Origin: Sulfurovum sp. NBC37-1
GTDB taxonomy: Bacteria; Campylobacterota; Campylobacteria; Campylobacterales; Sulfurovaceae
NCBI RefSeq assembly: GCF_000010345.1
Contig: NC_009663.1
Location: 2,170,001 to 2,234,000 of the forward strand
Direction: 5' to 3'
Length of the DNA stretch: 64,000 nucleotides
Of the stretch, positions 8,924 to 39,750 are shown in pieces (the stretch's first letter is position 1; every line of letters begins with the position of its first letter). Position numbers and translations under genes: made by a program. Below the pieces are notes generated by a model. The model was not told the origin of the DNA. It worked only from the letters and a program-made list of their open reading frames with translations, and searched no databases.

Positions 8924-9026
8924 AATATAAAATCTATTCCTTCTTAGTCTGTCGGCAACGTGTTGTTGAACCACTACGGCTGTATTTTGGTACTCATTTT
9001 ATCAAAAAAATGTATAATATCACAAA

Positions 9027-9294: not shown

Positions 9295-9304
9295 AATAAT
9301 CATC

Positions 9305-10069: not shown

Positions 10070-10133
10070 GCCCCATTAAAAAACTTTATGTATAATTCCT
10101 TCAAAACCCGTAAATAATTCGGGTTCACTCCCT

Positions 10134-20082: not shown

Positions 20083-20217
20083 ACACTACATTTCGTAACA
20101 ATTCAATACAACTCATAAAAAATCACAATTCTTTGTAAATCCCTAAAATACGGGTTTTAAAGCATATCATATCATCTCACAAAAAATAATCACAACTCAC
20201 TACACCACAGAGCAAGT

Positions 20218-20247
20218 GGTACACGTAATGATACATTTTTGGTACAC
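20218..20247 (+). other. Paired GGTACAC sites next to the integrase remnant
   Basis: GGTACAC occurs at 20218-20224 and 20241-20247, between ssrA and the integrase remnant. Repeats of this kind often precede P4-type integrase genes and may be arm-type binding sites. The same motif pair recurs at 40982-41000. Confidence 0.45.
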
Positions 20248-20348
20248 TATAGCAAAGAGACCATTTGACCGCATCGTACCCCACGGCTTCCGTGCCATGT
20301 TTTCCACCATTGCAAATGAAAAGAGTGATTTTAACTCTGACATTATAG

Positions 20349-21920: not shown

Positions 21921-22066
21921 ATAGAGGTACAGTTAGCCCACAAGATAGGCTCCAGGGTATCACAGGCTTACAATAGAGCTCAGTATTTGGATCAGAGGAA
22001 AGAGCTTATGCGGTGGTGGGGTGATTGGTTGGATGAGCAAAAAATAAATAAGGTTCTCTAACCCTC

Positions 22067-25000
22067 TTAAACTATTTTTATTTTATCTGCCCTTTCTAGG
22101 TCACCATCTTTTGTCAAAAGATATAAAATTGTTTTTTTGCTATATTTTTTTTCATTTTCACCAAGCTTCTGTTCACCATTGCTAATAGTTACGGATATGA
22201 TTAAATCCATATTTTTATTCTGTAAGTAGTGAATCATCGCATTACTATTAACATGCATACGTTCACCTGAAGATGAAAACTTATCATAATAATCTGCTTT
22301 TTCATCATCTGACCATCTTTCTATCTTAACAATTAGTTTTTTGTTTTGTGTAAAAATTGCTTTATATTTATCTATTGACAAATTACATATTTTTATAAAT
22401 TCCTCAGAGGGAAGATGTAAGGTTGATTGCATATTATGAGTATAAGGATCATGAGAATCTTTTTCCAAATCTAAAGATATGCTATCGATCCATCCTGTAA
22501 GGTCATACCCTTGATAAGTAAATGTCTTATCGTCATTTTTTATAGGCATATGGTAATCATAATAATCTGCTTTTTGCAATAGTTTAAGTAAGGTCTTTGA
22601 GGAATTAGGAGACACCAATGCACTTGATATATCAATTGTTTCAGAATATCTTTCTAAATAAATATTGTAATTCCCATGCAGTATCCAAGAGTCATTTGTT
22701 ATACCTAGAAGATTATCAAACTTCTCTAAGTTATGTTCTCTTTCAAAAATCCCCCATGGAAATGCTTCTAGTGGCTTTGCTTGTCTAAATTCAGAAAGCC
22801 AAAAATCATTATTTTCAAAATACCTACCTAAAAAATAATCATATTCCGACACATCACCATCTGAATATCTTTCTATATTAACTGAATGTGTTCTCAAAAG
22901 TTCACCTGCCACCAAAAACATAGATTCAAATTCTAAGTGTCTTACTGGTTCTTCTATAGTTGGTAGTTCACCATGCCTATGTGATGTCAAGTGATAATCA
23001 TCTCTCTCCCATCTATGTCGTAGATATTTCGCTTCGATAGCATCATTTTGTCCCCACTTATCAATTATCCATGTTTCTGCATCTTTTAATATATCTATCA
23101 TTTCTATATCATAAATATTTTGCATAGAGTTATACCAGTATGGTATAGTATCCATAGAATCAAAGTTAAATCTTGTTTGATGGTTCCATCCATATCCTTG
23201 TGTCTGTTTTTTAATAAGACAACTACGAGGTGAATTGGCTAATCTTAATCGCATTTCTTGAACATTAGACAAGTTTATGGTAATCGCTTTTGCTATTTCT
23301 CTAATGATTATATGAGGAAAATCTTCATCAAATACAATATTTTTGAAATCTTTTAAATATGGCTTTAATGCATCAGTAATTTCAAATGATAATCTATGAA
23401 ATACCAATAAAAGAGATTCTTTTGCTGAGATAGTATAAAAACTCAAATCATTTGTAAAAGGAAAACCATCATATGTAGAAAATTTATCTATAAACATAGG
23501 AATAAATGTATGGCTGCTTTTTAAAAGCTCTCTGGTACTATATTTGGCTTTCCATCTTATTCGCCTATCAGGATGTCCCATTTGTTTCCATAAAAATGTA
23601 ACCAAAGCTTCTTTATAGTTATTAGGATTAAAGTTACAAGGTGTAGTATCTAATTGATTTTCAAGTCTTCCGAATATATCGTACATAACATTTTTAGCAT
23701 CATCTTTTTTTAAAATCTCTTTAGAAACATCCATTAATCGATACAAATCACGAAGTTCATAAGAAAATGATTTTTTCACTTCTTCATTTAATATAATTTC
23801 ATATAGTCTATTTTTAGGTACATAGTGTGATAATCTTGTAATATACTCATCTGAATCTAATAGCCTAGAGCTATATGTATAGACAAATTTTTCTATTAAA
23901 GCCTCTTTATGTCTATTTACCTGTATATCAGATTCCCACTCCAATATACAGGTAAGAAATTCATCTATATAATGTTTAAGATAAAAAACCCTTACATTAC
24001 AAATTGCTTCTAGCCATGAAACTTTTTGATTATATTTTAATCTACTTCTTGCTTCAGAAAGTAATCTACCTGTATCGTATCCACTAATTTTTTTATCCAT
24101 TTCTGTTAAGTATTTTGGAAGATCTATTAAATATGGAATAAAGAAGTTATCCCAGTTTTCAATTGTTTCCTTATGTGTATACGGAGGAATATAATTGTCA
24201 GGGTTGATATTATTTTCTTTAAAAAACTTATGATATTTTTCAAGTTCTAATGTTAATGTATGTGAACTATAACCATTATGAGATAGCCATTTTCTTATTG
24301 CATCCAATGTAGATACCTGATCTTTATCCGAAAGGTTTTTACGTATAAAATCTATCATCTTTTCTATGATATTAAATAGTGCGTCTTTACTTGTCTCATT
24401 GAATTTCTCAATTAATAATAAAAAGGTATCTAAAATATCGCTATTTTTTACTAAAAATCTTAGCGAAAATAAATTTTCATATTCTAGATCTTCTTTTTCT
24501 ATAGCAATAGGAAGAATTTCAGATAAACTCTTCTCTTGTTTATAGATAATTTTATTATCCCATTGATGAGCAATATTTAATGCTAAAGAAAAATCCAAAT
24601 GAGCAATTAATTTAATTGCTTCATTTAGTACAAGATCACCTGTTTCATATAAGTATCCTTGTAATGATTCTACTACAGCAACATTTCGATTGACTAGTTT
24701 ATATTTTTCATTTTTCTCTAAAACTGGTAAAACATATTGAGTTAAAGACACTAAAAACTTATATAAAAAATAAACTTTGTCATCTAATCCACCTGTAGCT
24801 TCTAGTGCCAATTCAAAATATATTTTAGCCCGTTCTTCATCATAAAATCTAACTAATTTCGCATAGTTATTAAAAACATCAACTTTATCTTGAGCAGGCA
24901 AGGATTCCTTTTGAGTAATATTAACATCAAGATCAATAAGCTCAAAAGCTTCATCCAAATATCTTCCTTCCAATAATATAGGAGTGATTTTCTGAATAAG

Positions 25001-28000
25001 ATTATATTTGTCCATTATACTTTTTAAATTTTGTATTAAAGCTATAAAAGCTGTTCTATCTGCATTTGTCATTATTAAAATTTTAGTTAAAAGCTCAAAT
25101 TTAATGGCAAATCCTTGATACTCTCTTTGATTATGCCAGCTTGGTGTTGCTTTTTCTAAAGATGTTGTCCATTCTTTTTCAATGGTACTAAAATCTAATT
25201 GATTTACTATGACTTTAGTATAAAATTGAAAATAAGGCATGATATTCTTTATATACCCAATTTTTCTTTTTCTATCTTCTGTATCTGTGTAGCTTGGATT
25301 ATCTTTTTCTTTTATAAGTTCATCATAGTCAATTTCATTAGTCTCTATAGTATGTTTTAATCCTAGTGCTAAAAATGTTTCATAAAAACCACGCAATGAA
25401 TGATCATCATGAAGAGTCTCAAATGATTGTGTTGTAGTTTTTAGAATTGTTGGTAAGATAATTTTTTTATCAAAACCAAACTTAAGAGCTAAAATGGAAA
25501 AATCTAGAGAAATCGTATTTAAATCATCTCTATGCATGTAGCCTCTATTCCCTTGTAAAATTTCAATTCTTTTAGGCTTTAACTGGATATATCTATAGAG
25601 TTTTTTAGCAACACGGTGAACAAGTTCTCTAGATGGCGTATTCCCAATATTATTTAGTAAAACCAATAATTTTGCCTGAACAAAGGGGTGCATCCGAGTA
25701 TGATATTTTTCATATATCTCCTCTTGCTTTTCTATAGTCATTTCAAGTAGGAAATCTTTTGGTATATCATTTATAACTTGAATTAAAAACCATAATCTCC
25801 AAACACTAAACGACTCTATGCATTTCTCTAGCCCTTCTGTATAATAAGCCGATATACTTCTTTTTGCTATATCTGAAGTATCTATATTATTTGCATGTCC
25901 TCCTTTATCTTCTTTTCGCCTATCTAGTGTTTTTCTTAACCACACATCACCAACTTTTAAAAACTCTATAGACCTTTTATTATTTACTTTTGATAAAAGA
26001 TATGCGCAACGATAATTTAAATTTTCTAAATTTTCAAAGTTACTCGTGTAGTAACTAACTGCATTTTCTTCGTTAGTATAGATAGATAATAATTCAGGGC
26101 TATCTTGTAGAAACTCATGAAGCGTATTATCTGATTTAGTTAATTCAGAAACTAAATATAAAAGTTTATAAATATTTTGATAATCTTTTTTTTCAAGAGC
26201 CATATTTAGAGCTCGTTGCACTCTGTCTTTTTGTATCTCTTTTCTTTCTAGTCTATCTTCAATATGTTCTAAATTAAAGTTGAGAGTAATATCTATGAGT
26301 GAAGTATAATTCCCAGCTTTTTCTAAATGAAATGCTATATATTTAGTAGCATAGTGATTTGATACGATTTTTGTAAATAGATTCTTTGAAATTCTATTGT
26401 GTGTGTTTAGTGCTGTATGCTCATCAATTTTCGTTGATAAAAATGTTTCAAAATCTTCATCTTGGAATCCGATAGTATGTTCTTGATCTACTGTAATACC
26501 TGGTTCAAGTGTTTGAGTTATTTTTAAAGATTCATTCTTGGTTAATCCACTAGCTAACATAAAATCATCTATTTTTGCAGGTCTTGACATACAGATAAGC
26601 TCTTCTACATGCTCTCTAGTAATAGGCTCAATAACTGCTAATGCTTGCTCCCACATATCTTCAAATATCTTTTCTAAAGATATAGTTTCATCTTTTTTTA
26701 CAAGAGCCTCTATCCTATCATAGTTCCCATTAATTTGTTGTAATATATAGTTTTCAATACGGGGGTTACCTTTAGTCAACTTATGAAAAGACAAAGCTAT
26801 CTTCTCTTCCAATTTTGGGAAATACTGCGTTAAAAATTGTTTTGTTGATTCAATATCAAAACCTTTAAGCTCAAAGTCTAAAACATCATTTGGAGCTAAT
26901 AATGAGTCTTTTCTCAGTCCACCTCTAGCACTCATTATCAAATAGCAATGTTCAGGTAAGTTAAGGCTCCATAATTTAGGAATATATGGTTCTTCATTAA
27001 AGTATTTTGCACCATCTACATTATTATCTGCTGCATCTATTATTATAATTACTTTTTTCTTATCTAAAGTTTTTGAAGCTTCTTCTATATATAACTTAAA
27101 TTTTAATTCCAAGTCATAGATATTAAATTTTTGTTCTAATAACAATTCAAAACCTAACCCTATTGCAGTTTCATTTATGAGTTGTGTTAGTATCTTCTGC
27201 TGGAGATGTCTTTGAGCACCAAAATCTTTATATGTACCTCCTCCAAAACTATCATATATTAAAACTAGAGCATCAGAAAATATAGATTTTAAAGAAGATA
27301 ATGTAGATGTTTTACCCACTCCTGCTGAACCATAAGCCAATAGTTTTTGTGATGTTTTTGATTGCAATAGATCCGTTATCCCTTTAATATCATCAGTTTG
27401 AATAAACTTTTCTATACTTTTTATTCTTGATGGCACAGGAAATAATACTTCTAATGTAGTATCTAAATAGCTCAAAATTTGATATTTCGTAATCAATTTT
27501 TGTGTTTTTAATTGATTGCTAATAGCATTAAATTGTTTTGAATTTGAAAATTTAGCGATCAAGAACTCTTTCTCTTTTTTACTATAAGAAAAGATCAATA
27601 TTTTATCTACCTTTTTCTGACTCTCGTAATGCTCAATAAACTCTATTTCAAATGTAGTTTCATTCTTGTGGACAATCTCTCTTAATTCTATTTTTTCCAA
27701 GTCATTATACGGACTAAGTGTCTTTAAACTATATCGAGAGAGTTCTAGGTAAGGTATATAATTTTTACTTGTAGTAATTAGGTTTTGAATAGAAGACAAG
27801 ATGCTATTATAAGCTTTTTCTTGAGACTCAAAAGTATCAATAGGAAGTAGCCTTTTATCATCTTTTTCATCTCTTGGTATCGCATTTATATTTTTTACTT
27901 CATCGTGATTTAAAAGGTCGCCAGTATCTTTTAAAATTATAGGAATTATTATGGCATTTTTTTCTGCTGATTGTTTTAAAATCAGTGGTAGTTCTTGCTC

Positions 28001-28225
28001 TTGTATATAATCCGAAGCCCAAAAATTTCGACTTAACAATAGAAGAAAAATATCAGAATCAATGATTTCTTTTTTAATAATACTATCAAAAATATCACCT
28101 ACTTTTAACTTTTCATCATCTACCCAAAGGTGTATTTTATTTTCTCTCTTTAGTACAGAGAGTGTAATTTTTATTTCATCCTTATATACATGGTCTTTGG
28201 ATGAGTAACTTAGGAAGATTTTCAT
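22067..28225 (-). CDS. TIR-STAND NTPase, 2052 residues (Avs-like architecture)
   Basis: The N-terminal TIR domain (about residues 1-150) opens FLSYSSKDHVY and keeps a Glu in the DYIQEQELP helix. A P-loop NTPase follows: Walker A YGSAGVGKTSTL near residue 300, the conserved loop IYDSFGGGTYKD and Walker B KKVIIIIDAADN near 390. The remaining roughly 1400 residues are mostly helical with no motif I recognise, as in the sensor regions of STAND defence proteins (Avs and relatives). The likely role is detection of a phage protein, oligomerisation, then NAD+ hydrolysis or signalling by TIR. It is the last gene of the operon, and its ATG overlaps the upstream stop (ATGA). Very low GC. Confidence 0.85.
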   Translation of the reverse strand: MKIFLSYSSKDHVYKDEIKITLSVLKRENKIHLWVDDEKLKVGDIFDSIIKKEIIDSDIFLLLLSRNFWASDYIQEQELPLILKQSAEKNAIIIPIILKDTGDLLNHDEVKNINAIPRDEKDDKRLLPIDTFESQEKAYNSILSSIQNLITTSKNYIPYLELSRYSLKTLSPYNDLEKIELREIVHKNETTFEIEFIEHYESQKKVDKILIFSYSKKEKEFLIAKFSNSKQFNAISNQLKTQKLITKYQILSYLDTTLEVLFPVPSRIKSIEKFIQTDDIKGITDLLQSKTSQKLLAYGSAGVGKTSTLSSLKSIFSDALVLIYDSFGGGTYKDFGAQRHLQQKILTQLINETAIGLGFELLLEQKFNIYDLELKFKLYIEEASKTLDKKKVIIIIDAADNNVDGAKYFNEEPYIPKLWSLNLPEHCYLIMSARGGLRKDSLLAPNDVLDFELKGFDIESTKQFLTQYFPKLEEKIALSFHKLTKGNPRIENYILQQINGNYDRIEALVKKDETISLEKIFEDMWEQALAVIEPITREHVEELICMSRPAKIDDFMLASGLTKNESLKITQTLEPGITVDQEHTIGFQDEDFETFLSTKIDEHTALNTHNRISKNLFTKIVSNHYATKYIAFHLEKAGNYTSLIDITLNFNLEHIEDRLERKEIQKDRVQRALNMALEKKDYQNIYKLLYLVSELTKSDNTLHEFLQDSPELLSIYTNEENAVSYYTSNFENLENLNYRCAYLLSKVNNKRSIEFLKVGDVWLRKTLDRRKEDKGGHANNIDTSDIAKRSISAYYTEGLEKCIESFSVWRLWFLIQVINDIPKDFLLEMTIEKQEEIYEKYHTRMHPFVQAKLLVLLNNIGNTPSRELVHRVAKKLYRYIQLKPKRIEILQGNRGYMHRDDLNTISLDFSILALKFGFDKKIILPTILKTTTQSFETLHDDHSLRGFYETFLALGLKHTIETNEIDYDELIKEKDNPSYTDTEDRKRKIGYIKNIMPYFQFYTKVIVNQLDFSTIEKEWTTSLEKATPSWHNQREYQGFAIKFELLTKILIMTNADRTAFIALIQNLKSIMDKYNLIQKITPILLEGRYLDEAFELIDLDVNITQKESLPAQDKVDVFNNYAKLVRFYDEERAKIYFELALEATGGLDDKVYFLYKFLVSLTQYVLPVLEKNEKYKLVNRNVAVVESLQGYLYETGDLVLNEAIKLIAHLDFSLALNIAHQWDNKIIYKQEKSLSEILPIAIEKEDLEYENLFSLRFLVKNSDILDTFLLLIEKFNETSKDALFNIIEKMIDFIRKNLSDKDQVSTLDAIRKWLSHNGYSSHTLTLELEKYHKFFKENNINPDNYIPPYTHKETIENWDNFFIPYLIDLPKYLTEMDKKISGYDTGRLLSEARSRLKYNQKVSWLEAICNVRVFYLKHYIDEFLTCILEWESDIQVNRHKEALIEKFVYTYSSRLLDSDEYITRLSHYVPKNRLYEIILNEEVKKSFSYELRDLYRLMDVSKEILKKDDAKNVMYDIFGRLENQLDTTPCNFNPNNYKEALVTFLWKQMGHPDRRIRWKAKYSTRELLKSSHTFIPMFIDKFSTYDGFPFTNDLSFYTISAKESLLLVFHRLSFEITDALKPYLKDFKNIVFDEDFPHIIIREIAKAITINLSNVQEMRLRLANSPRSCLIKKQTQGYGWNHQTRFNFDSMDTIPYWYNSMQNIYDIEMIDILKDAETWIIDKWGQNDAIEAKYLRHRWERDDYHLTSHRHGELPTIEEPVRHLEFESMFLVAGELLRTHSVNIERYSDGDVSEYDYFLGRYFENNDFWLSEFRQAKPLEAFPWGIFEREHNLEKFDNLLGITNDSWILHGNYNIYLERYSETIDISSALVSPNSSKTLLKLLQKADYYDYHMPIKNDDKTFTYQGYDLTGWIDSISLDLEKDSHDPYTHNMQSTLHLPSEEFIKICNLSIDKYKAIFTQNKKLIVKIERWSDDEKADYYDKFSSSGERMHVNSNAMIHYLQNKNMDLIISVTISNGEQKLGENEKKYSKKTILYLLTKDGDLERADKIKIV

Positions 28226-31200
28226 GGGCTGGATTCTTTTAAAATTTGTTCATATTTTTTCTTTTTTTGTAGCCATTCCTTTTTCGTTAAATTATGTATT
28301 TTTTTATATAGGCAAGCTCCTATTTCAACTTCAACTTTTAAAGGATAATATATTGATTCAATATTGTTTTTTCCCAATAAAGAATATTCTTTTACTTCAT
28401 CATTACCCCAACTTAATATCTTTGTTTCATTTTTAGAAAAACAAGCTCCATTAATTTTCTTATTATGTTTAATAGTGACTAATACTTTCCCAGTCTTTAC
28501 ACTCCAGAGCCTAATTTCTTTTTCATCCCAACTCAAAATTTCCTTTTCATCTTTACTGAATATTGCGTGAAGTATATTATGACTATGTTTACCATTGAAT
28601 AATAGCTTTTTTGTATCAATATCCCAAATATTCAGCTCATCTCTGCACCAACTTAATACATTCTTTTCATTTTTATTAAAAAAAGTCCCATTTAAGTTTT
28701 TATTATGTTTTATAATAGTTTCTAATTTATTATTATAGATATTATATAAATATAAATTTTCTCTCTCGTAGTATACGATACGTTTAGAATCTTTGGATAA
28801 CACAATTTCATCATCAATTGTTGCATTAATATCAACTAAAAGTATAGGTTTATCGTTTTTAATATTCCAAAACTTAATACCACTAATTCCCCAGCTCAAA
28901 ATTTTATTATCTTCAATAAATTGTACTCCGTTTGTATATCCTGCCTTTAAAACAACTCTTGGTTGTGTATCATTAAGATCCCAAACTCTTATTCCACCAT
29001 CCTTATACCAAGATGCCATTTTTGTTTTGTTTGCATTAAAAGTAGCCCCCTCTATAGTGTCTCCTGTACCATTTGTAAACGAAGTGCCACTCTTACCAAT
29101 AAGAGTATTAACCGTATAAGTTTTTAATAACTTTTTATCATTAATATTCCATAATTTTATAGTTTCTCCACCTATAGTAAAAATTGTTTTTTTATCTTGT
29201 GACAATATTACATCTTTTATGTAAGAGTTTAATTTTAAGCCAAATGCAATTAAAGGATTTTTTATTTTATTTAACTCACTTTTTACTCTATTAAAATCTT
29301 TTAATGTGTATATATTTTTGCATGTTTTAGTATCAAATACTTTGATAGTGTATTGATTCCAAGATAAGATCTTCGTAGCCCTATCATAAAATTTAGCTTT
29401 GCCTCCATCTATATGGTAAAAATTATCCTTACACACTATTTTTAATTTTTCTTTAAGAGTTTCATTATTATAACTTAATATTTTAGACTGATTTTTACTT
29501 AAGATTATCTTTTTACTTCCATTAGAATATTTAATATTATATTTTGATAAATTTGTATCCCAAAGCTGTATCTTTCCATTTTCTGTACTGGTTAAAAGTT
29601 CTGTTTCATCTTTATTAAATTCTGCACTACTTATTTCACTATCACTCATAATTGTAAAAATGGGTTTATTATCAGTAATACTCCATAAATCCAATCTATT
29701 CTCCCCCCAACTTAAAATCTTTGTTTCATCATTACTAAAAACTGCATTTTTAACTTTATAGCTACATTTAATTATTTTAGTTGGCTTGTGTTCTAAATTA
29801 TCTATATCAAATTCAGATTGCCTTGGGTTACAATTATCCCAAAGTTTAATTGTCTTATCATCACTCCAACTTAAAATAAAGTTACCTTTTTTATTAAAAA
29901 GTGAACCTGCAATTCTACCATCATGAGACATAATGATCTCGCTATTAGGGCAAAAAATATCTTCGTCATCAAATATAAAAGCTTTCATATAATTTTCTTC
30001 AAAATAATTTAATAATAATTTTGTATTTTGCTTATTAAAAGTCATACGATAAGGACTTTTTTTTATAGGACTAAGTTCTTTTAACATTTTCCTAGTTTTT
30101 ATATCCCATATTTTAATCTTGTTTTCCCCATAAATTGCAATAATATTATTATCTTTACTCAAACTCACTTCTTCAGCGTGATTAAAAACCAAAAAGGGTT
30201 TATTGCTATCATTAATATCCAGAATTTTTACCACTTTCTTATTTGCATAGCCTGATATAGTTAATATTTGCTTTTTATCTCTTATAAAAATTGCCTTTTC
30301 TAAATTGTTATCAAATTTAAAAACCTGTAAAATTTTATTATCTGGAATACTCCTTAATCTGAGCCAATTTGAAGCAGTTAATACCATTACTTTCTTTTTA
30401 TCAAAATAGGCATCCATAATTTCATTTTTAAATTTAGACTTATATATTATTTTGCCATTCATTTTCCATAATTTTACATTATTATTAGGATATGCACTCC
30501 AGCTAAAAATCATTGTTTCTTTTTTATCTACAATTGCATTGTCACTGCTTAACCCCATTAAAATGGGGTTAGATGTATTTTTATCAAAAATTTTTATTTG
30601 ATCATCATAAATATTTAAAAACAATATTTTATTTTGCGATTTTGTAAATTCAGCATGTCCCCAACCTCTATGACTAATATAATTATTAAATATTTTTTTT
30701 AATTTAATTCCTCCGTTAACTGTCTTGTAAAGTATTTTTATCTCCTTTTTTTCATTTTTATCTGAACTTTTAGTTATTGCATTTGCAAATAGGAATTTTG
30801 CATAAACTGGATTATTAAGATTATTTTTATTATCAATACCTTGTTGATATAGATTATTGTAAAGCTCTTTTTTGATTACCTGTTTGTTTTTATCTATTTT
30901 TATTTTCTGATTCCAGATAAATACAGAAAATCCAACTATAACTAGAGTGAACAGACTCCATATAGAAATAAGTTTTATCCTATCCCTCCTCTTCTGCTCT
31001 TCATCCCTCCGATAAAACTCCCCAAAAGGAACACCCAAAATCCCAGCAATCAACTTCAACTTAGCAAGTTCCCGACCATCCTCTTTCTCAATAGTACTAC
31101 TAGCCAAAATAGAAGTTCTTTCATCAGTCAAATTCCCTTCACTATCTAGCTTATACTTCAAAGCCTCAGGAAAACACTCTAACACATCATCAAACTTATC

Positions 31201-31560
31201 ACTCTCTATTGCAAAAGGCTCACCATCCACAATAATAGGAAAAACCCTATCCTCTCCATGCATCATTTTAAAATCTACAATCTCTTTATTTACCCATTTA
31301 GAATCAGCCGATTTAGTAGAACAAACTACAATAAGTGCATCAGAGTTTTCAAGAGCCTTGAGTATCTCCACACCCAAATCATCCCCTGCATTTAGCTCAT
31401 ATCGGTCTCGAAATATGGGGTAAAGTGATTTGGGTAAGGTTTGGTAGTCTTCTCGTAGTTTTCTTGGAATCTTGTATTTTTCTAACTCTTTATGCAGCCA
31501 AGAACCAAACGCTTCATCATCGTGTGAGTAGCCTATGAATGCTTTGTAGGATTTAGACAT
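28222..31560 (-). CDS. TIR-transmembrane-WD40-like repeat protein
   Basis: This protein of about 1112 residues has three parts. The N-terminal TIR (KAFIGYSHDDEAFGSWLHKE) has Glu in SKWVNKEIVDF; a transmembrane helix lies near residues 206-226 (LISIWSLFTLVIVGFSVFIW); and about 850 residues of repeats follow, with ILSWGENRLDLW and ILSWSDDKTIKLWD units that look like a degenerate WD40 propeller set. The TIR is predicted cytoplasmic, and the topology of the repeats is unclear. The start at 31560 (MSKSYKAF) overlaps the upstream gene by 8 bases; ATG 31575 is an alternative. WD repeats may sense ligand, as in other TIR- or caspase-like sensors. Confidence 0.85.
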   Translation of the reverse strand: MSKSYKAFIGYSHDDEAFGSWLHKELEKYKIPRKLREDYQTLPKSLYPIFRDRYELNAGDDLGVEILKALENSDALIVVCSTKSADSKWVNKEIVDFKMMHGEDRVFPIIVDGEPFAIESDKFDDVLECFPEALKYKLDSEGNLTDERTSILASSTIEKEDGRELAKLKLIAGILGVPFGEFYRRDEEQKRRDRIKLISIWSLFTLVIVGFSVFIWNQKIKIDKNKQVIKKELYNNLYQQGIDNKNNLNNPVYAKFLFANAITKSSDKNEKKEIKILYKTVNGGIKLKKIFNNYISHRGWGHAEFTKSQNKILFLNIYDDQIKIFDKNTSNPILMGLSSDNAIVDKKETMIFSWSAYPNNNVKLWKMNGKIIYKSKFKNEIMDAYFDKKKVMVLTASNWLRLRSIPDNKILQVFKFDNNLEKAIFIRDKKQILTISGYANKKVVKILDINDSNKPFLVFNHAEEVSLSKDNNIIAIYGENKIKIWDIKTRKMLKELSPIKKSPYRMTFNKQNTKLLLNYFEENYMKAFIFDDEDIFCPNSEIIMSHDGRIAGSLFNKKGNFILSWSDDKTIKLWDNCNPRQSEFDIDNLEHKPTKIIKCSYKVKNAVFSNDETKILSWGENRLDLWSITDNKPIFTIMSDSEISSAEFNKDETELLTSTENGKIQLWDTNLSKYNIKYSNGSKKIILSKNQSKILSYNNETLKEKLKIVCKDNFYHIDGGKAKFYDRATKILSWNQYTIKVFDTKTCKNIYTLKDFNRVKSELNKIKNPLIAFGLKLNSYIKDVILSQDKKTIFTIGGETIKLWNINDKKLLKTYTVNTLIGKSGTSFTNGTGDTIEGATFNANKTKMASWYKDGGIRVWDLNDTQPRVVLKAGYTNGVQFIEDNKILSWGISGIKFWNIKNDKPILLVDINATIDDEIVLSKDSKRIVYYERENLYLYNIYNNKLETIIKHNKNLNGTFFNKNEKNVLSWCRDELNIWDIDTKKLLFNGKHSHNILHAIFSKDEKEILSWDEKEIRLWSVKTGKVLVTIKHNKKINGACFSKNETKILSWGNDEVKEYSLLGKNNIESIYYPLKVEVEIGACLYKKIHNLTKKEWLQKKKKYEQILKESSP

Positions 31561-33871
31561 TATTTGATATCTCATGTTTATATCTAGTAATTTCTATAGC
31601 AATTGATTTGGAAGAAACATAGTTATCAAACATTTTAATATTTCTCAAAATTGGATAAGTATCTTTAACTTCTTTTAATGAAATATTTAAAAGTATTGGT
31701 ATAAGAATTTTCTCCTTTTCAATTTTTAAAGAATATCCAATTGCTAATTCTTCGTTACACCAAGAGCCTTCTATGAAATTTGGACTTATTATGGCAATAA
31801 CACCATATTTTAGTCTAATGAATCCTTCATTTATCTCTTGAACAATATTTTCAGCTTCTTTAATATTCATCCTGTCATAGAATACATTGAAACCTAAATC
31901 TTTTAACTCACTTACAAACTCATCAACAAACGGAAACTTATCTACAGAAGAATGACTTATGAAGAAATCAAATTCGCTATTGTCTGTTTTTATATTTAGT
32001 TTATCTTTTTCACTAACTCTTTGATGTGCATTAATTGATGCATGTCGATATAATAATGCATCTTTGTTGATATCAAAATTCAAGTTTATATACAAATCAT
32101 CTATAACATCTTGTATATTTTCATTTATAATCATATATTTACAAAAATCCATAGTACCTTTGCTATATTTTAATGTCAAGGCATTGATGTTGATAGTTTT
32201 CTCTTTTAAAATTACAAATATAAGGTAGTAAGCTAAAAAATATTCTTGAAAAGATTTATGTGCAAACTTTGCTTTAAAGTTTCTTCGTTTTCTTTTATCG
32301 TAAGGAATCAACACAGAGTTAAGCAACAACTCAATTATGTGATTAATTTCTCCATAATCAGTATGCATTAAATTCTTAATTTCCTCTTCAGTTATATACT
32401 CACCATATACAATATTGAAACCATCAACATTGGTCATTTCCCATGATATCTTTGCTAGAAGGTCAAAAATATAATCTGTAACTTCATATACATCTCCTTG
32501 TTTAGATAATGGTCTAGCAGCTCTTTTAGAAATATATGAACCCTCCCTATCTAGTGTGAACTTTCTAGTTAAATATGATTCATATAACTCTGAAATATTT
32601 TTAATTTTAATATCTCCAGATATGATATCATCAGTAAGCATTTTTAAAAATAATGGTCGTTTTGGTATATCTCCATATTCTTGATGATATTTTTTATCTC
32701 TAACTAATTGTTCGAATTTTTCTAAATTTTTTGTATCTTGACTCTCTCTAGATAGTGTATTCTTTAAAGAAAGTATATATTCTAAAATGATTTTATCATT
32801 CCATTCTTCTAGAATCAACTCTGTATAAGTGGGTCTATTTTGAACAAATAAAGAGTCTTGAAAACTACCATAACGTTCATCTCTAAATTCTTTTCTGAGT
32901 GTAAACACAGAATTACACCCAAAAGAAGATGCACAATTAAATATTTGTTTCAGCCCATATTCTTGATATGCTAGATGATATTCATCCAATCCATCATATA
33001 GCAAGATAATCTTTTTTTCTGTGCGTAACATTCTTTTAAATTCAGTAATTGCGATATTATCATAGTCATCTTCTTTACGTAATTCTTCTTCTAAAAGAAT
33101 TTCAAGAATTTCTTTAGCTAATGTTTGTTCATTATCAAAAGCTTTGTTTGATAATTGAATTAAAGGGATATAAATATAAATATTATCATTATTTATACTT
33201 GATAAATTTAATAATAAGGAAGTTTTGCCAAATCCAAATTCACTTATAATAAAAGTCCATGTTTTTGCAGTACTGTTCATTTTTTTTATAAATGAATTTT
33301 CTATATATTTTTTAGGATTAGTACCCTTGTCTTTTTTTTCAAGATAATAAGGTACTTCCTCGATATATATATTTTTTTCAGATAAACGCATTTGATGATT
33401 TTGTTTATATTTATTATGGATATTACTAATTTTTTCTATAAGACTCTGATTCATCTTTTGAAACATATAATCAATAAAACTTCTAGGGGACAAAGCCTTA
33501 ATTTTAATATTTTTTTGAAAATGATCAATTAATCTAGTTAATTGTTTTCTGAGTAGTTTATTCGCTAGTTCTTTTTGATGTATTATGATGATTTTATCTA
33601 TCACTCCATATTCACTTAAAATAATTTTTATATCATTATCAATTTCAAGATCTTTTATTTTTAATACTTTCTCATCGGTACCTAAACAGTAATAAATACA
33701 ATAACCTTTGTCAGACTTGGTAAATAATGATGTTAGTTTTTTATCCTTTGTTGTATTAGGATTAAATTTTATAAGAAACTGATAGCACTGTTCATAAAAG
33801 TCATTTTTATTACAAGTAATTAGCTTTCTAACAAGTTTTCCTCCAGTACCTGTTGAACTTCCATTTCCCAT
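31553..33871 (-). CDS. NACHT NTPase with C-terminal TIR domain
   Basis: In this 772-residue protein, the N-terminal 200 residues are of unknown fold. A NACHT domain follows, with Walker A SEFGFGKTSLLLN near 215 and the diagnostic acidic Walker B LLYDGLDEYH. A helical region with AHKSFQEYFLAYYL, the usual NACHT-associated tail motif, comes next. A TIR domain is at about 640-772 (DFFISHSSVDKF; Glu in SWCNEELAIG). NACHT proteins of bacteria (bNACHT) protect against phage. Here the effector lies at the C terminus, the reverse of the 22067 gene. It starts nine bases after the upstream stop. Confidence 0.88.
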   Translation of the reverse strand: MGNGSSTGTGGKLVRKLITCNKNDFYEQCYQFLIKFNPNTTKDKKLTSLFTKSDKGYCIYYCLGTDEKVLKIKDLEIDNDIKIILSEYGVIDKIIIIHQKELANKLLRKQLTRLIDHFQKNIKIKALSPRSFIDYMFQKMNQSLIEKISNIHNKYKQNHQMRLSEKNIYIEEVPYYLEKKDKGTNPKKYIENSFIKKMNSTAKTWTFIISEFGFGKTSLLLNLSSINNDNIYIYIPLIQLSNKAFDNEQTLAKEILEILLEEELRKEDDYDNIAITEFKRMLRTEKKIILLYDGLDEYHLAYQEYGLKQIFNCASSFGCNSVFTLRKEFRDERYGSFQDSLFVQNRPTYTELILEEWNDKIILEYILSLKNTLSRESQDTKNLEKFEQLVRDKKYHQEYGDIPKRPLFLKMLTDDIISGDIKIKNISELYESYLTRKFTLDREGSYISKRAARPLSKQGDVYEVTDYIFDLLAKISWEMTNVDGFNIVYGEYITEEEIKNLMHTDYGEINHIIELLLNSVLIPYDKRKRRNFKAKFAHKSFQEYFLAYYLIFVILKEKTININALTLKYSKGTMDFCKYMIINENIQDVIDDLYINLNFDINKDALLYRHASINAHQRVSEKDKLNIKTDNSEFDFFISHSSVDKFPFVDEFVSELKDLGFNVFYDRMNIKEAENIVQEINEGFIRLKYGVIAIISPNFIEGSWCNEELAIGYSLKIEKEKILIPILLNISLKEVKDTYPILRNIKMFDNYVSSKSIAIEITRYKHEISNNV

Positions 33872-33880
33872 TTTTTGACC

Positions 33881-35755
33881 TTAAATACTTATATCTATTA
33901 AAATTAATTGGATAATCTCATAAATTTTTTTATTACTATATATTTTTATTTGATTATTTGAATCAATATTTCGTACTTTTACATTTTGAATCACTAAAAA
34001 ATTATACATTTCATCATATTTTTTTCTAATTCCCTTCTCATATTTTGGATTATTTTCTATAAATAACCTAAGTTTTTCATTGTTAATTTTTTGATAATCA
34101 AATGTTAATTCTTCAACATCATATCCCTGTAGCAATTTAATAATCTTTTTAGTCATGCCTCCAAAACCACCAATTAAATATGTTGGTTTATCTGCTTTAA
34201 GTGCCAAGTAGACTTCCTCTAAAATACCTGGATAAAAACCACTATAACCTGTAATCTTTCCTCCAACAGCAATTTTTATATCCATTTCTTTTGTAATTTT
34301 CTCTCTCATTCTTGTAAGATTTTCTGCTACTTTATCAATCTCTGTTAATTCACAATCTTCGCCAATCTCTTGAAAATCTATCACATCTAAGTATCGTGTC
34401 TTTATCTTCGTATCAATGAACTTACTAAAAGGTCTTGCTGCAAAATTAATGATTTTTTTCTCTTCATTATAATTAGAGTTATATGACTTTAAAAGATTAA
34501 CAAGTAAGAGGGTAAAATTAAATTCACTTTTATATCCCAAGTCCCCACCATATAGCAATGTATTATCTTTGATAAACAAATAACGAGCCAATTCAACCAT
34601 TAACATATGCATATGATCTATTGATATTCCATATTCTTCTAAATCTTTAGATTCACTAATGGAAATAGCTATTTTTTTATTGGTTTTTAATTTATTTTCT
34701 AATAATACAGGAGTGACAATACCACCATTATTAAAGCAATCATTTAAAATATCCTGTTCTGGTAATATAAGCGGTGGATCTGGATAGAGCATTGTTTGGT
34801 TTCCATGCATGCAAACATCTAAGAGTTCAGGGGGTCTACTTAAAATTTTATAATTCTTGCAATTTTGTCTATTTTGATACATGTCTATAAAGAGGTAATG
34901 TTCCAATGCTTCTTTCAGCAGAGCATTAATGATTAATCTAAGATTATGGTTTGACTTAACAGAAAATGTTTCATTGCAAAGATGTTCAATATTGGTAACA
35001 CTATGTAAAAGTTTTACCATTTTTACATTGCCAAGATAGGGAAACATTCTTTTATCTTCTTTGGATAGTGTGTCTATTCCTACTATAGGTATTTGTTTTT
35101 GCTTTGCCCAAATTAATTCTTGCTGCGTCCAAACTGTGTGTCCATAATTATCAGAATATACAAATAGAAACAAACTATCATTCACATTTTTTTCCAGTAC
35201 CTTTTTCCAACTTGATGAATTCTGGATATCCGTTTCATCGAAAAAATTATCAAGTTTAATATCATTATCAATAAAAGTTTTAATTAATTTTGCTATATTT
35301 CTACCATCTTTTTTTGCATGAGAGATAAATATCTGTAGTTTGTCTTTCCTCAAGATAAATCGCAAAATATCATGTGTTATTTCAGTATAAAGAAAATTTA
35401 GAAGATCTTCTTTTTGAAAAGCTCTAATGAAATTAATTTCATCACCCCACAACTTCATTTGTCCATAATTTTCAGTTAATGCAACAAAAACTACTCTTTT
35501 ATTCTCTTGCCATTTATGTAATAGTTTTAATTGTATATCACTGTTTGCATAAGTCTTTGCTATTAATAAATCATCAATCAAAATAATATCAATTGCATTA
35601 TTATTTTCTTGATAATCAGACAATTCGAAGAAATAAACATCAAAAAGTTTTCCACCTAAAACATCATCATCTTTAAAAAAGTAATTTTCTATAAAAAATT
35701 TCTTTAATTGTGATAGGCTATCTAACTCTTTAGCATAATAAATATTTAAAATCAT
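33881..35755 (-). CDS. TIR protein with C-terminal SLOG-like nucleotide-sensing domain
   Basis: This protein has 624 residues. About 135 N-terminal residues look like a flavodoxin/receiver-type alpha-beta unit (IDIILIDDLLIAKTY). The TIR domain at about 140-265 starts LQIFISHAKKDG and has Glu in TVWTQQELIWA. The C-terminal part from about 365 (IAISISESKDLEEYG, LMVELARYLFIKDN, LLYGGDLG, PTYLIGGFGG) resembles SLOG/LOG Rossmann domains, the class that in ThsA binds cyclic ADP-ribose isomers. A TIR and a signal-binding domain in one chain suggests feedback or relay between signal maker and receiver. Confidence 0.8.
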   Translation of the reverse strand: MILNIYYAKELDSLSQLKKFFIENYFFKDDDVLGGKLFDVYFFELSDYQENNNAIDIILIDDLLIAKTYANSDIQLKLLHKWQENKRVVFVALTENYGQMKLWGDEINFIRAFQKEDLLNFLYTEITHDILRFILRKDKLQIFISHAKKDGRNIAKLIKTFIDNDIKLDNFFDETDIQNSSSWKKVLEKNVNDSLFLFVYSDNYGHTVWTQQELIWAKQKQIPIVGIDTLSKEDKRMFPYLGNVKMVKLLHSVTNIEHLCNETFSVKSNHNLRLIINALLKEALEHYLFIDMYQNRQNCKNYKILSRPPELLDVCMHGNQTMLYPDPPLILPEQDILNDCFNNGGIVTPVLLENKLKTNKKIAISISESKDLEEYGISIDHMHMLMVELARYLFIKDNTLLYGGDLGYKSEFNFTLLLVNLLKSYNSNYNEEKKIINFAARPFSKFIDTKIKTRYLDVIDFQEIGEDCELTEIDKVAENLTRMREKITKEMDIKIAVGGKITGYSGFYPGILEEVYLALKADKPTYLIGGFGGMTKKIIKLLQGYDVEELTFDYQKINNEKLRLFIENNPKYEKGIRKKYDEMYNFLVIQNVKVRNIDSNNQIKIYSNKKIYEIIQLILIDISI

Positions 35756-35773
35756 CTTTCATTCCCTTATAGA

Positions 35774-36244
35774 TTATTTCTTTTGTATACTCAAACCTTT
35801 AACTCCTGCCATATCTTCTAATATAGATGAATATGCTCCAAGAATTACTTGTAAATCTTTCAATTCTTTTCTAAACATTTTACGCTGTTCTGCATCATTC
35901 AATTTACCATCTGCAGAAAGCTTGTGCCATTTCCCAGTAAAAGGTCGTACTTCTTCATTAATAATAAATAATGCTATACGAGAAAAATCAGGAGCATGCC
36001 TTCCATATTTTTTCAGTAAATCTCTTGTGAGTTGAAATAAAGTATATATACTTTGAAGAGCTGTAACTTCATCTCCTTCTTCATCACCAAGTTCTTGTGT
36101 AGTTATACGTGTTTGCATCTCTACATACATTTCCCATGCAGCATTTTTATCTACATCATTAGGCATAAAATCCATTTCTATAAAACCTGCTTTAGCTTTC
36201 AACCCTGACAAACTCCATTTGTCAAATAATTCACTCCATTTCAT
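35774..36244 (-). CDS. Small conserved-looking protein of the TIR operon, function unknown
   Basis: This 156-residue soluble protein is rich in helices, with recognisable blocks AGFIEMDFMPNDVDKNAAWE, RITTQELGDEEGDE, RPFTGKWHKLSADGKLND and LEDMAGV. It has no TIR or known enzyme motif and no signal peptide. I believe similar proteins occur beside TIR genes elsewhere but cannot name a family. Its start overlaps the tandem-TIR gene stop by 14 bases, so it is translationally linked. It could be an adaptor, inhibitor or sensor for the TIR proteins. Confidence 0.8.
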   Translation of the reverse strand: MKWSELFDKWSLSGLKAKAGFIEMDFMPNDVDKNAAWEMYVEMQTRITTQELGDEEGDEVTALQSIYTLFQLTRDLLKKYGRHAPDFSRIALFIINEEVRPFTGKWHKLSADGKLNDAEQRKMFRKELKDLQVILGAYSSILEDMAGVKGLSIQKK

Positions 36245-37031
36245 TTGTTTGTTCCTTTCTATTTATAATTTGTAACAATTCATTTATGCTAGCTTTACTG
36301 AAGCCATCTTTAGCATCAATATATGATAGATTCCTAAAGGCAGGAAAATCATTAATATTTGTATTATCTAATAAAACAGGAATAATAAAAGCATTTTGAT
36401 TTAATGCCCTCTGTTTTTCTTGCCAAAACCATTTTGACTCTTTTGCATTTTTACTAAGAAAAATTAAAACAGCTCCTCTGTCTTTTGTTTCCTGAAGAGC
36501 ATCATAAATTTTATCTTGTATATTGTCTCCCATTTTGATAGATGCGGTATCCTTAAAAATTCGAAACCCAGAAGATTCTAATTGCTCATAAATCTTATTT
36601 ACTTTATAATTATCTTTATGTGAATAAAGGAAAAAGAGTGTTGCCTGTTTCATTAAATTGTCAAGCTTTGATAACTGCGTACATCTCTCGTATTTTAATT
36701 TTTCAATATCTATTTCTCTATAAATTTTAAAAGATAAAGATTGAACATATTTTCGTTCCCATTTAAACCATTTTGACTCTTCTGCAAATGAACTCGTACA
36801 TGAAACAAAAATGTTTCTAGCTGAAATTTCCCATTCCAGTAAAGGCTTAATCATATTCTTTTTATCTTCATCCTCCAAAGATTTCAAATAAAACATTAAA
36901 GCACTAAAACCATTATCTTCTAAATAATTTCGTACTATTTTAACCTCTTCATAATCATGAGAAGAATGTGATAAAAAAACCCAACCATTTGCTTTCTTTT
37001 CCCAATGTTCATCGTTTATAAGTTTTTTCAT
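36231..37031 (-). CDS. Tandem TIR-domain protein
   Basis: This 266-residue protein is made of two TIR-like domains and almost nothing else. TIR 1 is GWVFLSHSSHDYEEV with Glu in SKWFKWERKYV. TIR 2, from about residue 130, is LFFLYSHKDNYKVNKI with Glu in SKWFWQEKQRAL. Both keep the SKW..E helix of the NADase site. Paired TIR domains could form an intramolecular active interface, which in other TIR enzymes needs assembly. It begins 11 bases downstream of the next TIR gene. Confidence 0.85.
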   Translation of the reverse strand: MKKLINDEHWEKKANGWVFLSHSSHDYEEVKIVRNYLEDNGFSALMFYLKSLEDEDKKNMIKPLLEWEISARNIFVSCTSSFAEESKWFKWERKYVQSLSFKIYREIDIEKLKYERCTQLSKLDNLMKQATLFFLYSHKDNYKVNKIYEQLESSGFRIFKDTASIKMGDNIQDKIYDALQETKDRGAVLIFLSKNAKESKWFWQEKQRALNQNAFIIPVLLDNTNINDFPAFRNLSYIDAKDGFSKASINELLQIINRKEQTNEME

Positions 37032-37042
37032 TTTTTTTTAAC

Positions 37043-37849
37043 CTATTTGCCTATTAAATATTCACGTATGATTTTATATAACTGATCTGAGGTTAATGTA
37101 TTAAAATCTAATTTTTTAAATAAATATTCAGAGTCTATTTCCGTATCATTATTGACTATCATAAGCATATTCTTATTGTATTTTTTTGCTAATTCTAATT
37201 CTTTTAAGCAGTACTCACTTGTTTTAAATTCTTTATCAATAAAGAAAATTATTGACTTAGCATCTTTAATGGCGCCATCTAAAGATGAATTTAATTGATT
37301 TCCTACATACAAACTTTTTCTATCTAAAAAAACTGGGTATGCATCAGCATTAAGCATATTAATTGTTTTGTCAAATACATCAATCAAGTCTTTATTTGAA
37401 TAACTAAAAAATACAGTATCAGTATATAAATTAGTATTAAAAAATTCAAATCCTCTATCTTTTAATTTTGTTCGTTCATCAATAAGAAATATTTTCTCAC
37501 TATGAAATGCCATTTCTATACCTTCTTTTGTGCAAGGTGTAGTTAATATATTGAACCTTCTATTTTTCATTTGATTCATTAAGCTTCGTGTTGTATTAAA
37601 TGTTAATTCTTTAATAGCATATTCATTTAAACTATGTTTGATCTCTTTGAACTCTTTTTCATAATTACTTTCAACTTCAAGTACAAAATAAAATTCTAAT
37701 TTATAGGGGATATTATTTACACAAAATATAAAACCAATTTCTGTGCTAATATCTTTGTATTTTTCACAAACTTGTAAAAGCATTGTCTCTATTGGTCTTC
37801 TGTTTCCATAGTCAAAAGAAAAACTTGTTTGAAGATATTTTCTACTCAT
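37043..37849 (-). CDS. TIR protein with novel N-terminal domain
   Basis: This 268-residue protein has about 140 N-terminal residues of mixed alpha-beta composition (IGFIFCVNNIPYKLEFYFVL) with no family I recognise, then a TIR domain from about 142 (DTVFFSYSNKDLIDVF, VFLDRKSLYVGNQL, Glu in SEYCLKELELA). I chose the ATG at 37849 because it forms an ATGA overlap with the upstream stop and follows GGAG; ATG 37858 is also possible. The N-terminal unit may be the sensor. Confidence 0.8.
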   Translation of the reverse strand: MSRKYLQTSFSFDYGNRRPIETMLLQVCEKYKDISTEIGFIFCVNNIPYKLEFYFVLEVESNYEKEFKEIKHSLNEYAIKELTFNTTRSLMNQMKNRRFNILTTPCTKEGIEMAFHSEKIFLIDERTKLKDRGFEFFNTNLYTDTVFFSYSNKDLIDVFDKTINMLNADAYPVFLDRKSLYVGNQLNSSLDGAIKDAKSIIFFIDKEFKTSEYCLKELELAKKYNKNMLMIVNNDTEIDSEYLFKKLDFNTLTSDQLYKIIREYLIGK

Positions 37850-38394
37850 TTTTGCCACTCCACACCACTACGATTATTAACAAAAGAAGGAAAAGAGTTA
37901 TCTGGGATAATATTGTTCCGTCTTTCAAATGCCTCATGAATCCACCTTTGTACTTCATAAGGATTATCACTCCATTCATAAAGCTTTGCAAAGCCACAAT
38001 CAATATTTTCACTAAGTCTAGGTGGAATAGTTGTTTTTCTATATTTACCGTGTTCAATATCATAATAGTCATGGTAACTTGGTAATAAAATTCCTATTAC
38101 ACCTGATCTAGAACTATATGTTGTTTGCCTGATACTTGAAGCTATTTCCCAATCCACATGTTTTCTTTTCCAAGTTTCAGAACCAATTAATACAACTGTT
38201 ACTGTTGAATCTCTCAAATATTCATCACGAATCTTCTGTCTTATTGTTTCTGTTCTTAAAAAAGGGTCAATATCGCCTATTTGAACAGACCTGGAAACCA
38301 TAATATCATATTGGTTTGAAAACAATTCTTCAAACTTATTCCTATAATATTGGTCATTTGCATGATGGTAACTTACAAATACTTTATGCCTCAT
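37846..38394 (-). CDS. ThsB-like TIR protein (DUF1863/MTH538 type)
   Basis: This 182-residue protein has the compact TIR/flavodoxin-like fold of the DUF1863 family, to which Thoeris ThsB belongs. It begins KVFVSYHHANDQYYRN, has RSVQIGDIDPFL, TIRQKIRDEYLRDSTVTVVL, Glu in RKHVDWEIASSI, and IPPRLSENI. ThsB proteins make cyclic ADP-ribose-type signals on infection. No SIR2-SLOG ThsA gene is present, so the receptor, if any, would be another island protein such as the SLOG-bearing 33881 product. Start and stop share ATGA overlaps with both neighbours. Confidence 0.85.
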   Translation of the reverse strand: MRHKVFVSYHHANDQYYRNKFEELFSNQYDIMVSRSVQIGDIDPFLRTETIRQKIRDEYLRDSTVTVVLIGSETWKRKHVDWEIASSIRQTTYSSRSGVIGILLPSYHDYYDIEHGKYRKTTIPPRLSENIDCGFAKLYEWSDNPYEVQRWIHEAFERRNNIIPDNSFPSFVNNRSGVEWQK

Positions 38395-38960
38395 ATATAT
38401 ACTCCTTTTGAACTATTTCCTAACCATTTACTCAATTCTTTAGCTGTATTTGTTTTATGGTCATATACCATCCAGACATCTTTATCGTATCCTTCCAATC
38501 CTCCATATACTATTCGACTATATAGGCCTAAATACTCTTGCTCTGTCCACTTTTTATCATATGATTTTTCTACAGAGGGAAAAATTGCAACATCATAATT
38601 ACTTTTGCTTCCATCACCCAATCCAAGCTCCCATGGAATCCATTTACTGTCTTTACTATTTGGTGTAACAAAAACAACCATCTTTGGAAGTTTCTTAATT
38701 GTGTCTTTAAGTATCTTAGCCGTTTCAAAAGAAGGAGGTTCAGGTAGCCTATCATCCCCTTTATCCATATAGACTTTACCCCCATGATTAGTTAATATTT
38801 TTAGTGGATATGGTAATATTTCTATATCTTTAGAAGAATAGGATAGAAAAACATTTTTAGATATATCTTTTCTTGCAGCAATTTTAATTAGAGTATTTTC
38901 ATTTAAAATTTCTTTTTCTGAATAAGCCCTCATTTCATCCATTGTTATAATTTTTGGCAT
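38391..38960 (-). CDS. TIR-domain protein, first gene of the TIR operon
   Basis: This 189-residue protein has about 35 N-terminal residues of lead-in and then TIR (NVFLSYSSKDIEILPYPLK, KVYMDKGDDRLPEPPS, Glu in SKWIPWELGLGDG). GGGAGGAGACATAAAG gives the strongest ribosome binding site of the cluster, consistent with being promoter-proximal. The stop overlaps the next start (ATGA). No promoter stands out clearly in the 39,000-39,100 region upstream. Confidence 0.85.
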   Translation of the reverse strand: MPKIITMDEMRAYSEKEILNENTLIKIAARKDISKNVFLSYSSKDIEILPYPLKILTNHGGKVYMDKGDDRLPEPPSFETAKILKDTIKKLPKMVVFVTPNSKDSKWIPWELGLGDGSKSNYDVAIFPSVEKSYDKKWTEQEYLGLYSRIVYGGLEGYDKDVWMVYDHKTNTAKELSKWLGNSSKGVYI

Positions 38961-38989
38961 CTTTATGTCTCCTCCCTTTTTTTATCCCC

Positions 38990-39043
38990 GTTGAGCCTTC
39001 CCCAGAAGTACGAATAAGTTTCAAGACGCTTAGGGCATCAAAA
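38990..39043. repeat. 54-bp direct repeat, left copy
   Basis: GTTGAGCCTTCC.CAGAAGT.CGAATA.GTTTCA and a CATCAAAA end match 41078-41131 in the same orientation, with about 10 mismatches in 54. The two copies bracket a 2.1-kb segment with fic, suggesting a cassette or duplicated junction. Confidence 0.7.
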
Positions 39044-39175
39044 ACTTAGTTTTTGTATGACATAAACACATCTTGTCTTTCTATTCAAACTAAATTAGCC
39101 ATAATTAGACAAATTTTAGCACATTTACATCAAAAAGAGCCGCAAAAGACAAAAATGGACTCATAGTTTGCATGA

Positions 39176-39388
39176 GTGAGTCTTAGTGGGCGGATGTCAT
39201 ACTGGAGTTTTGTCAAATATGCCAAACTGGAATTACCCCTCAAAAAGAGTACAAAAACTGAAACCAAAAAAGAGACACCAAAAAAAGAAAATACCAACGA
39301 TGGACCACTAATCGCCAAAGCCAATTTTAAAACAGGTAAAAAATGGAATCCTCACACGGTAGATATACCTAAAAACAGAATATTGTAA
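39176..39388 (+). pseudogene. Lysine-rich ORF fragment of unknown origin
   Basis: An in-frame stretch from GTG 39176 could encode 70 residues (MSYWSFVKYAKLELP, then a Lys/Thr-rich linker with KKSTKTETKKE). There is no convincing ribosome binding site. After its stop, another frame stays open to about 39480 (GVYPLIFTDGNPPVF), so it may be a frameshifted remnant. I recognise no family. It lies between two repeats and could be junk. Confidence 0.3.
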
Positions 39389-39476
39389 AGGTAGAGGAGT
39401 TTATCCTCTGATCTTTACCGATGGGAACCCTCCAGTTTTTGTAAGGTCTAAAGCTAACTGCTCTGAATCCATTAAC

Positions 39477-39750
39477 TTAAGGGCACCTCTAAAAATAGGT
39501 GATAGCCACAACATCTCTAGCTTTTGTCTAGGCTAGGCACTCTTTTGAAACCCTAGCCATAGCTAAGGTGAAAAAGAGTAACAACGCATAGGCGAAAGCT
39601 AGTGATGCCCGTAGGGTGGGCTTTGCAAACGTAATCTTGCACAAGATATTTACTTCGTCTTAGCTACGGCTAGGACTTGAAAATCTCTTGCACAATCTCA
39701 CATTTGCAAAACCCATTGTGGGTGTTACCTATTATTAGAGGTGCCCTTAA
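39477..39750. repeat. Structured inverted repeat element, copy 2
   Basis: The interior (about 39510-39717) is nearly the same as in the copy at 9027-9294, including ACATCTCTAGCTTTTGTCTA and GCATAGGCGAAAGCTAGTGA. The outer arms differ: 39477-39500 pairs with 39727-39750 over 24 bases with one mismatch, and neither arm resembles the arms of copy 1. The element carries no ORF. Its right arm supplies the last codons and stop of fic on the other strand. Confidence 0.85.

Follow-up and report, generated by a model that had tools for sequence, protein, structure and literature searches.

A TIR-SLOG protein in a multi-TIR operon of Sulfurovum sp. NBC37-1 is a candidate receptor-effector of a Thoeris-like system

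Type I Thoeris combines ThsA, a SIR2-SLOG protein, with the TIR protein ThsB. The ligand site of ThsA includes Ser288, Phe357, Arg371, and Glu403 (PMC7272460), with 3'cADPR coordinated by Arg371, Lys388, and Glu403 (PMC10022894). A nucleotide sensor can also gate a TIR NADase, as outlined in the account of the CARF-TIR protein Cat1 (PMC12162218). We analyzed a window of 64,000 nucleotides from Sulfurovum sp. NBC37-1 (positions 2,170,001 to 2,234,000 of contig NC_009663.1, with coordinates below counted from the start of the window unless a different locus is named), which encodes W4, a TIR-SLOG protein of 624 amino acids (33881..35755, minus strand). Because a sensing module and a TIR module are joined in W4, and because its gene stands among other TIR genes, the protein is probably an NAD+-destroying switch that acts on an infection signal from its neighbors.

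The W4 open reading frame is uninterrupted, starts with ATG, and has an AAGGG stretch resembling a ribosome-binding site upstream, while scans for promoters and terminators gave no difference from shuffled sequences. The TIR domain occupies residues 138–285 (34901..35344, minus strand), with a Pfam TIR_2 match at residues 142–221 (E 3.1e-10), and the SLOG cluster 2 domain occupies residues 356–624 (33884..34690, minus strand). The latter matches SLOG cluster 2 (PF18163, LD_cluster2) over residues 359–603 with an E value of 4.6e-54 and 184 bits, and passes the curated cut-off of 25.3 bits. The presence of TIR and SLOG-like domains in a single polypeptide, which had been proposed from a sequence-only reading of this DNA together with a search with SLOG profiles, is thus borne out by both Pfam models. 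The two motifs quoted in that reading are conserved SLOG motifs, with Y-G-G of LLYGGDLG found in 50–52 of 55 relatives and the last glycine of G-x-F-G-G, from PTYLIGGFGG, in all 55. Chance similarity or mis-annotation of W4 was rejected given the E value of the SLOG match and the existence of full-length relatives across many phyla. The family to which ThsA itself belongs, STALD (PF18185), scores 17 bits on W4, below its cut-off of 24, and the W4 domain therefore represents another family of the SLOG superfamily of ThsA. No SIR2 match was found in W4 by Pfam or by fold comparison, and the head of the protein is a TIR domain.

An AlphaFold2 model of W4, built from 29 relatives, has a mean pLDDT of 83.8 and a pTM of 0.82. 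Its fold was compared with the 1000 PDB chains ranked highest by Foldseek, among which the best structural alignment is with the SLOG domain of Bacillus cereus ThsA in complex with 3'cADPR (7uxs; Z 15.8, 2.8 Å over 179 residues) and the next matches are other ThsA structures. TM1055 (1rcu) also matches, as do TRPM2 and TRPM8 with their SLOG-like N-terminal regions, all with Z about 13, and the TIR part of the model matches the TIR domain of SARM1 (Z 14.6, 2.4 Å over 123 residues). The earlier expectation that the C-terminal region would superpose on ThsA SLOG is therefore supported at the level of fold, whereas the domain falls in cluster 2 rather than in the family of ThsA. Profile-profile alignment of cluster 2 with ThsA SLOG by hhalign gave an E value of 2e-4 and a probability of 45%, with a sequence link that is weak outside the motif region, and the fold match is stronger evidence for kinship with ThsA SLOG than this modest score. 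A search of PDB sequences with the SLOG profile returned nothing significant, the only match being a sub-threshold one to a molybdenum-cofactor carrier.

The hhalign alignment places R484 of W4 (34304-34306, minus strand) on Arg371 of ThsA and E514 on Glu403 (E513/E514 at 34214-34219, minus strand), so that the arginine and glutamate that contact 3'cADPR are kept, and it sets the lysines of ThsA GNK388 and W4 GGK500 (34256-34258, minus strand) one residue apart. Residues R484, E513, and E514 are invariant in 55 of 55 relatives, S365 (34661-34663, minus strand) is kept in 54 of 55, and position 500 is lysine or arginine in 49 of 55; all five are predicted to line the ligand pocket. In the TIR domain, the predicted catalytic glutamate, E213 (35117-35119, minus strand), is invariant in 29 of 29 relatives. 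The SLOG superfamily also includes the LOG nucleoside-monophosphate hydrolases, which have a catalytic arginine and glutamate at the same places and the signature PGGxGTxxE. The SLOG domain of W4 could accordingly be a glycosidase that degrades the messenger and ends signaling, a limiting role for which there is a parallel in the proposal that viral SLOG domains degrade cADPR (PMC9503650). However, the hydrolase signature occurs in none of the 55 relatives, and in 52 of them its place is taken by GxxPG[IVL]xEE (with A or S allowed for P), which is near the receptor loop of ThsA in form. This replacement favors a receptor over an enzyme, without proving it, and permanent coupling to an NAD+-consuming TIR domain suits an effector better than a brake. 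We consider a limiter very unlikely.

The N-terminal domain of W4 (residues 1–135; 35351..35755, minus strand) had been described as receiver-like, but it has no Pfam match, to REC or any other family. A model of the domain made on a Lysinibacillus relative (pLDDT 85.9) best matches TIR domains, with Z 12.3 for the TIR domain of RPS4 (2.8 Å over 133 residues) compared with Z about 9.5 for receiver and flavodoxin folds. In the 38 sequences that bear a conserved tryptophan, the residue four positions later is always one of I, L, V, F, M, A, and K, while the second TIR domain has glutamate there in 29 of 29. Comparing the profile of the N-terminal domain with that of TIR yielded a p value of only 0.03, and the pseudo-TIR reading therefore rests on structure; for W4, whose own N terminus is divergent (20% identity to the modeled Lysinibacillus domain), it also rests on homology along the full-length protein. 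On this modeling, the N terminus of W4 is better read as a degenerate TIR-like domain that lacks the catalytic glutamate than as a receiver.

W4 is encoded by the sixth gene of a nine-gene operon, whose genes all point the same way at spacings of −23 to +18 bases. Eight of the operon proteins carry TIR domains according to Pfam, with W9, for which the Pfam match is below cut-off, counted by PADLOC. On the minus strand, the operon begins with the genes for W9, a ThsB1-like TIR protein (38391..38960; PADLOC ThsB1/ThsB, PDLC00436, E 4e-61), W8, a ThsB-type TIR protein with PDB matches only to ThsB (37846..38394; PF08937 ThsB_TIR, E 6.3e-22), W7, a TIR protein with an N-terminal extension (37043..37858; TIR_2, E 2.5e-11), W6, a double-TIR protein (36231..37031; TIR_2 in two stretches, E 3.6e-27), and W5, a protein of 156 amino acids (35774..36244) from a family that recurs in TIR-SLOG loci (16 of 55). 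The genes after W4, on the same strand, encode W3, a P-loop NTPase with a C-terminal TIR domain (31553..33871; TIR_2, E 7.7e-17), in which Walker motifs, including a NACHT-like Walker B motif DGLDE, were read in the sequence; W2, in which a TIR domain (TIR_2, E 3e-12) is combined with one transmembrane segment (about residues 199–223) and propellers of WD40 families (28222..31575); and W1, a protein of 2052 amino acids in which a TIR domain (TIR_2, E 9e-12) is fused to an Avs3-like STAND protein (22067..28225; PADLOC Avs3a, E 3e-102 over residues 241–2043). W1 also matches the NCBIfam model of Avs3a with an E value of 6e-120, yet stays below its cut-off, and appears as an Avs3 relative with an N-terminal TIR domain in place of the nuclease.

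Parts of this operon recur elsewhere. Locus L006 carries homologs of W6 (52% identity), W7 (34%), and W8 (62%), locus L007 carries homologs of W6 (63%) and W5, and in both loci the W6 homolog adjoins the TIR-SLOG gene. Pfam has no model that matches the W5 family itself, and the family shows N-terminal transmembrane segments in some TIR-SLOG loci; variants were seen in loci L054, L057, L058, L062, and L063, and in Verrucomicrobiota and Methylomonas the family is fused to multi-transmembrane proteins, including three with a patatin-like match. A TIR protein that resembles W9 by eye (locus L072, 2942-3469, minus strand) adjoins the gene for a classical SIR2-SLOG ThsA, and from this pairing type I Thoeris also appears to be accompanied by W9-like TIR proteins. 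The operon has a GC content of 26–31%, compared with mostly 44–48% in its flanks, and within window positions 20001–40000 the GC content drops from about 46% to the operon's level. Judging by this composition, the operon is probably a horizontally acquired island.

Our preferred reading, held with moderate confidence, is that W4 serves as both receptor and effector in an anti-phage operon of Thoeris-like type, with a TIR domain that destroys NAD+ when gated by a messenger. In this mechanism, the ThsB-type proteins W8 and W9 would detect infection and convert NAD+ into a messenger of ADP-ribose type, with the larger TIR proteins W1–W3, W6, and W7 probably acting as further sensors. The messenger would bind the SLOG domain of W4 in a pocket equivalent to the 3'cADPR site of ThsA, W4 would oligomerize and thereby bring its middle TIR domains together, and the assembled domains would destroy NAD+ and stop the cell before phage is made. 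The N-terminal pseudo-TIR domain may be a structural or assembly part. The domain layout, fold, conserved pocket and catalytic residues, operon, and repeated pairing are observed, and for W4 we infer the ligand, the direction of signaling, the NADase activity, and the role in phage defense. The sequence-only reading had the protein amplify, limit, or relay a signal made by the other TIR proteins of the operon. The context supports the proposed source, with the signal itself inferred, and of the three roles none is favored first here, since W4 most likely executes the response. The other TIR proteins of the operon could instead be NADases in their own right rather than signal makers. Given the range of scaffolds that bear TIR domains in the operon (an Avs3-like STAND protein, a P-loop NTPase, a WD40 propeller, and a double TIR), one may also picture the TIR sensors all yielding the same messenger for one TIR-SLOG effector to read, which would pool several independent phage alarms through a common nucleotide, although we hold this extension to be rather unlikely.

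TIR domains are able to make cADPR isomers, and the catalytic glutamate of W4 is conserved. The TIR domain of W4 might thus make the messenger itself, with binding to SLOG boosting synthesis in a positive feedback while other members of the operon kill the cell, and W5-family partners, which are membrane-anchored or patatin-fused in some loci, could be the effector. The W5 family, however, is limited to the 16 loci noted above, and no other non-TIR effector is common to most loci, which leaves W4 as the only constant candidate effector. Moreover, the domain fused to SLOG is the effector in SIR2-SLOG ThsA and looks like one in locus L008, where SLOG cluster 2 is fused to a patatin-like phospholipase (8458-10092, minus strand). 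We therefore regard an amplifier as unlikely and retain W4 as the probable executing, signal-gated NADase. The SLOG-patatin gene of L008 has ThsB-type TIR genes and a gene for a P-loop NTPase-TIR protein on its flanks, and its product together with SIR2-SLOG ThsA suggests a single kind of receptor behind which the killing domain can be exchanged.

The pairing of TIR-SLOG with further TIR genes is recurrent. Of 55 loci, 42 have at least one more TIR gene no further than three genes away, and the 13 loci that have no second TIR gene within this distance are explained in some cases by a contig end. TIR genes make up 72 of 208 genes (35%) within two positions of TIR-SLOG, compared with 10 of 380 (2.6%) beyond four positions, and 68 of 87 neighboring TIR proteins, a set that includes three E. 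coli proteins and W8, match ThsB_TIR (PF08937). In one case, the Aureispira plasmid locus L010, TIR-SLOG and three other TIR genes stand between type III-B CRISPR cmr genes and cas6/cas1/cas2. About ten loci, including L069 from E. coli (10397-13144) and L007 (3719-8975), have near TIR-SLOG a cassette that combines Nmad2 and a ThsB-type TIR with the helical domain of a 5-hmdU DNA kinase (HMUDK_hel) and in some cases adds thymidylate synthase, which suggests that DNA base modification and TIR signaling are connected. SLOG domains elsewhere bind varied nucleotides. Together with the recurrence of the modification cassette, this allows that W4 senses a nucleotide that does not come from the neighboring TIR proteins, for example a phage-modified one, with the TIR proteins acting in parallel. 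Such a ligand seems rather unlikely to us, because ThsB-type TIR proteins are far commoner neighbors than the cassette, which is absent from the window, and because the pocket of W4 resembles the 3'cADPR site.

Relatives of W4 are sparse near Sulfurovum and widespread across bacterial phyla. Among 60 related genomes, a W4-type protein was found only in the window's own, and the SLOG family was matched in 4 of 397 genomes of the phylum. Single-protein queries were insufficient to find relatives: single-protein scans of viral and genome contigs and tblastn against phages returned none, and an alignment of nine SLOG sequences was too divergent as a query. A search with an alignment of close relatives gave 50 loci, most of which encode TIR-SLOG in full length, either as one protein or as a pair of genes. 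Their hosts belong to Bacillota, Bacteroidota, Verrucomicrobiota, Pseudomonadota, Spirochaetota, Actinomycetota, and other phyla, and further loci lie on plasmids. The nearest sampled relative of W4 in the tree is that of L006, from another genome of the same order, followed by a Clostridia protein, a placement that fits horizontal transfer. The TIR and SLOG parts are fused in 37 of 55 loci and divided in 17 of 55 between a TIR gene and a SLOG gene immediately downstream of it. The fused or split state changes about eight times on the tree, with at least six changes forced by well-supported branches, and the two parts remain adjacent throughout, which argues that they work together. A split form that is chromosomal in a set of complete E. 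coli genomes encodes TIR proteins of 203, 170, and 397 residues and a SLOG protein of 272, with a W5-like membrane protein before them.

The closest parallel to W4 is type I Thoeris, which has a SLOG domain of the same fold with the conserved arginine and glutamate, an effector domain N-terminal to SLOG, and adjoining ThsB-type TIR genes, here represented by W8 in the operon. W4 differs in having a TIR rather than a SIR2 head and a cluster 2 rather than a STALD domain, as well as in its additional N-terminal pseudo-TIR domain and the many TIR genes per operon. In type III Thoeris (ThcA and ThcB4, compared here by their NCBIfam models), a TIR and a SLOG-like protein also work together, and W4 fuses both functions. 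ThcB4 matches the TIR domain of W4 with 33.6 bits against a cut-off of 220, with the match in L006 also taking in a portion of the N-terminal domain and the best split relative reaching E 8.9e-14. ThcA has no match to W4 at E values up to 0.01 (equivalog cut-off 110 bits) and weakly matches the cluster 2 SLOG domain of a few split relatives (best E 3.6e-4). A search for true ThcA covered 60 genomes from the same order, 20 that carry TIR-SLOG, and 299 from the phylum of the Lysinibacillus relative; it gave no match, but the controls were silent too, so that this does not establish absence. Because both cut-offs were failed, W4 is not filed as type III Thoeris, although it may work like it. No PADLOC model matches W4, and a 2025 preprint by Yirmiya et al., cited for type VI Thoeris, reportedly surveys TIR signaling systems and may cover TIR-SLOG.

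Cat1 and TIR-SAVED of CBASS resemble W4 in the fusion of a nucleotide-sensing domain to a TIR NADase, an activity that is predicted for W4, but use CARF and SAVED sensors for cyclic oligonucleotides, neither of which is present in W4. If our reading is correct, TIR NADases would have SLOG as a further gate besides CARF and SAVED, and W4 would offer a testable receptor that E. coli chromosomes also carry in the form of a split operon. The SLOG-patatin protein of L008 shares with W4 the SLOG cluster 2 domain beside ThsB-type TIR genes and differs in having a patatin-like lipase as its effector head, so that the head of Thoeris-like effectors, whether SIR2, TIR, or patatin, would be exchangeable behind one receptor. 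The unusual feature is the multi-TIR operon around W4, for its size and for the diversity of its sensors, several of which may rely on a common messenger.
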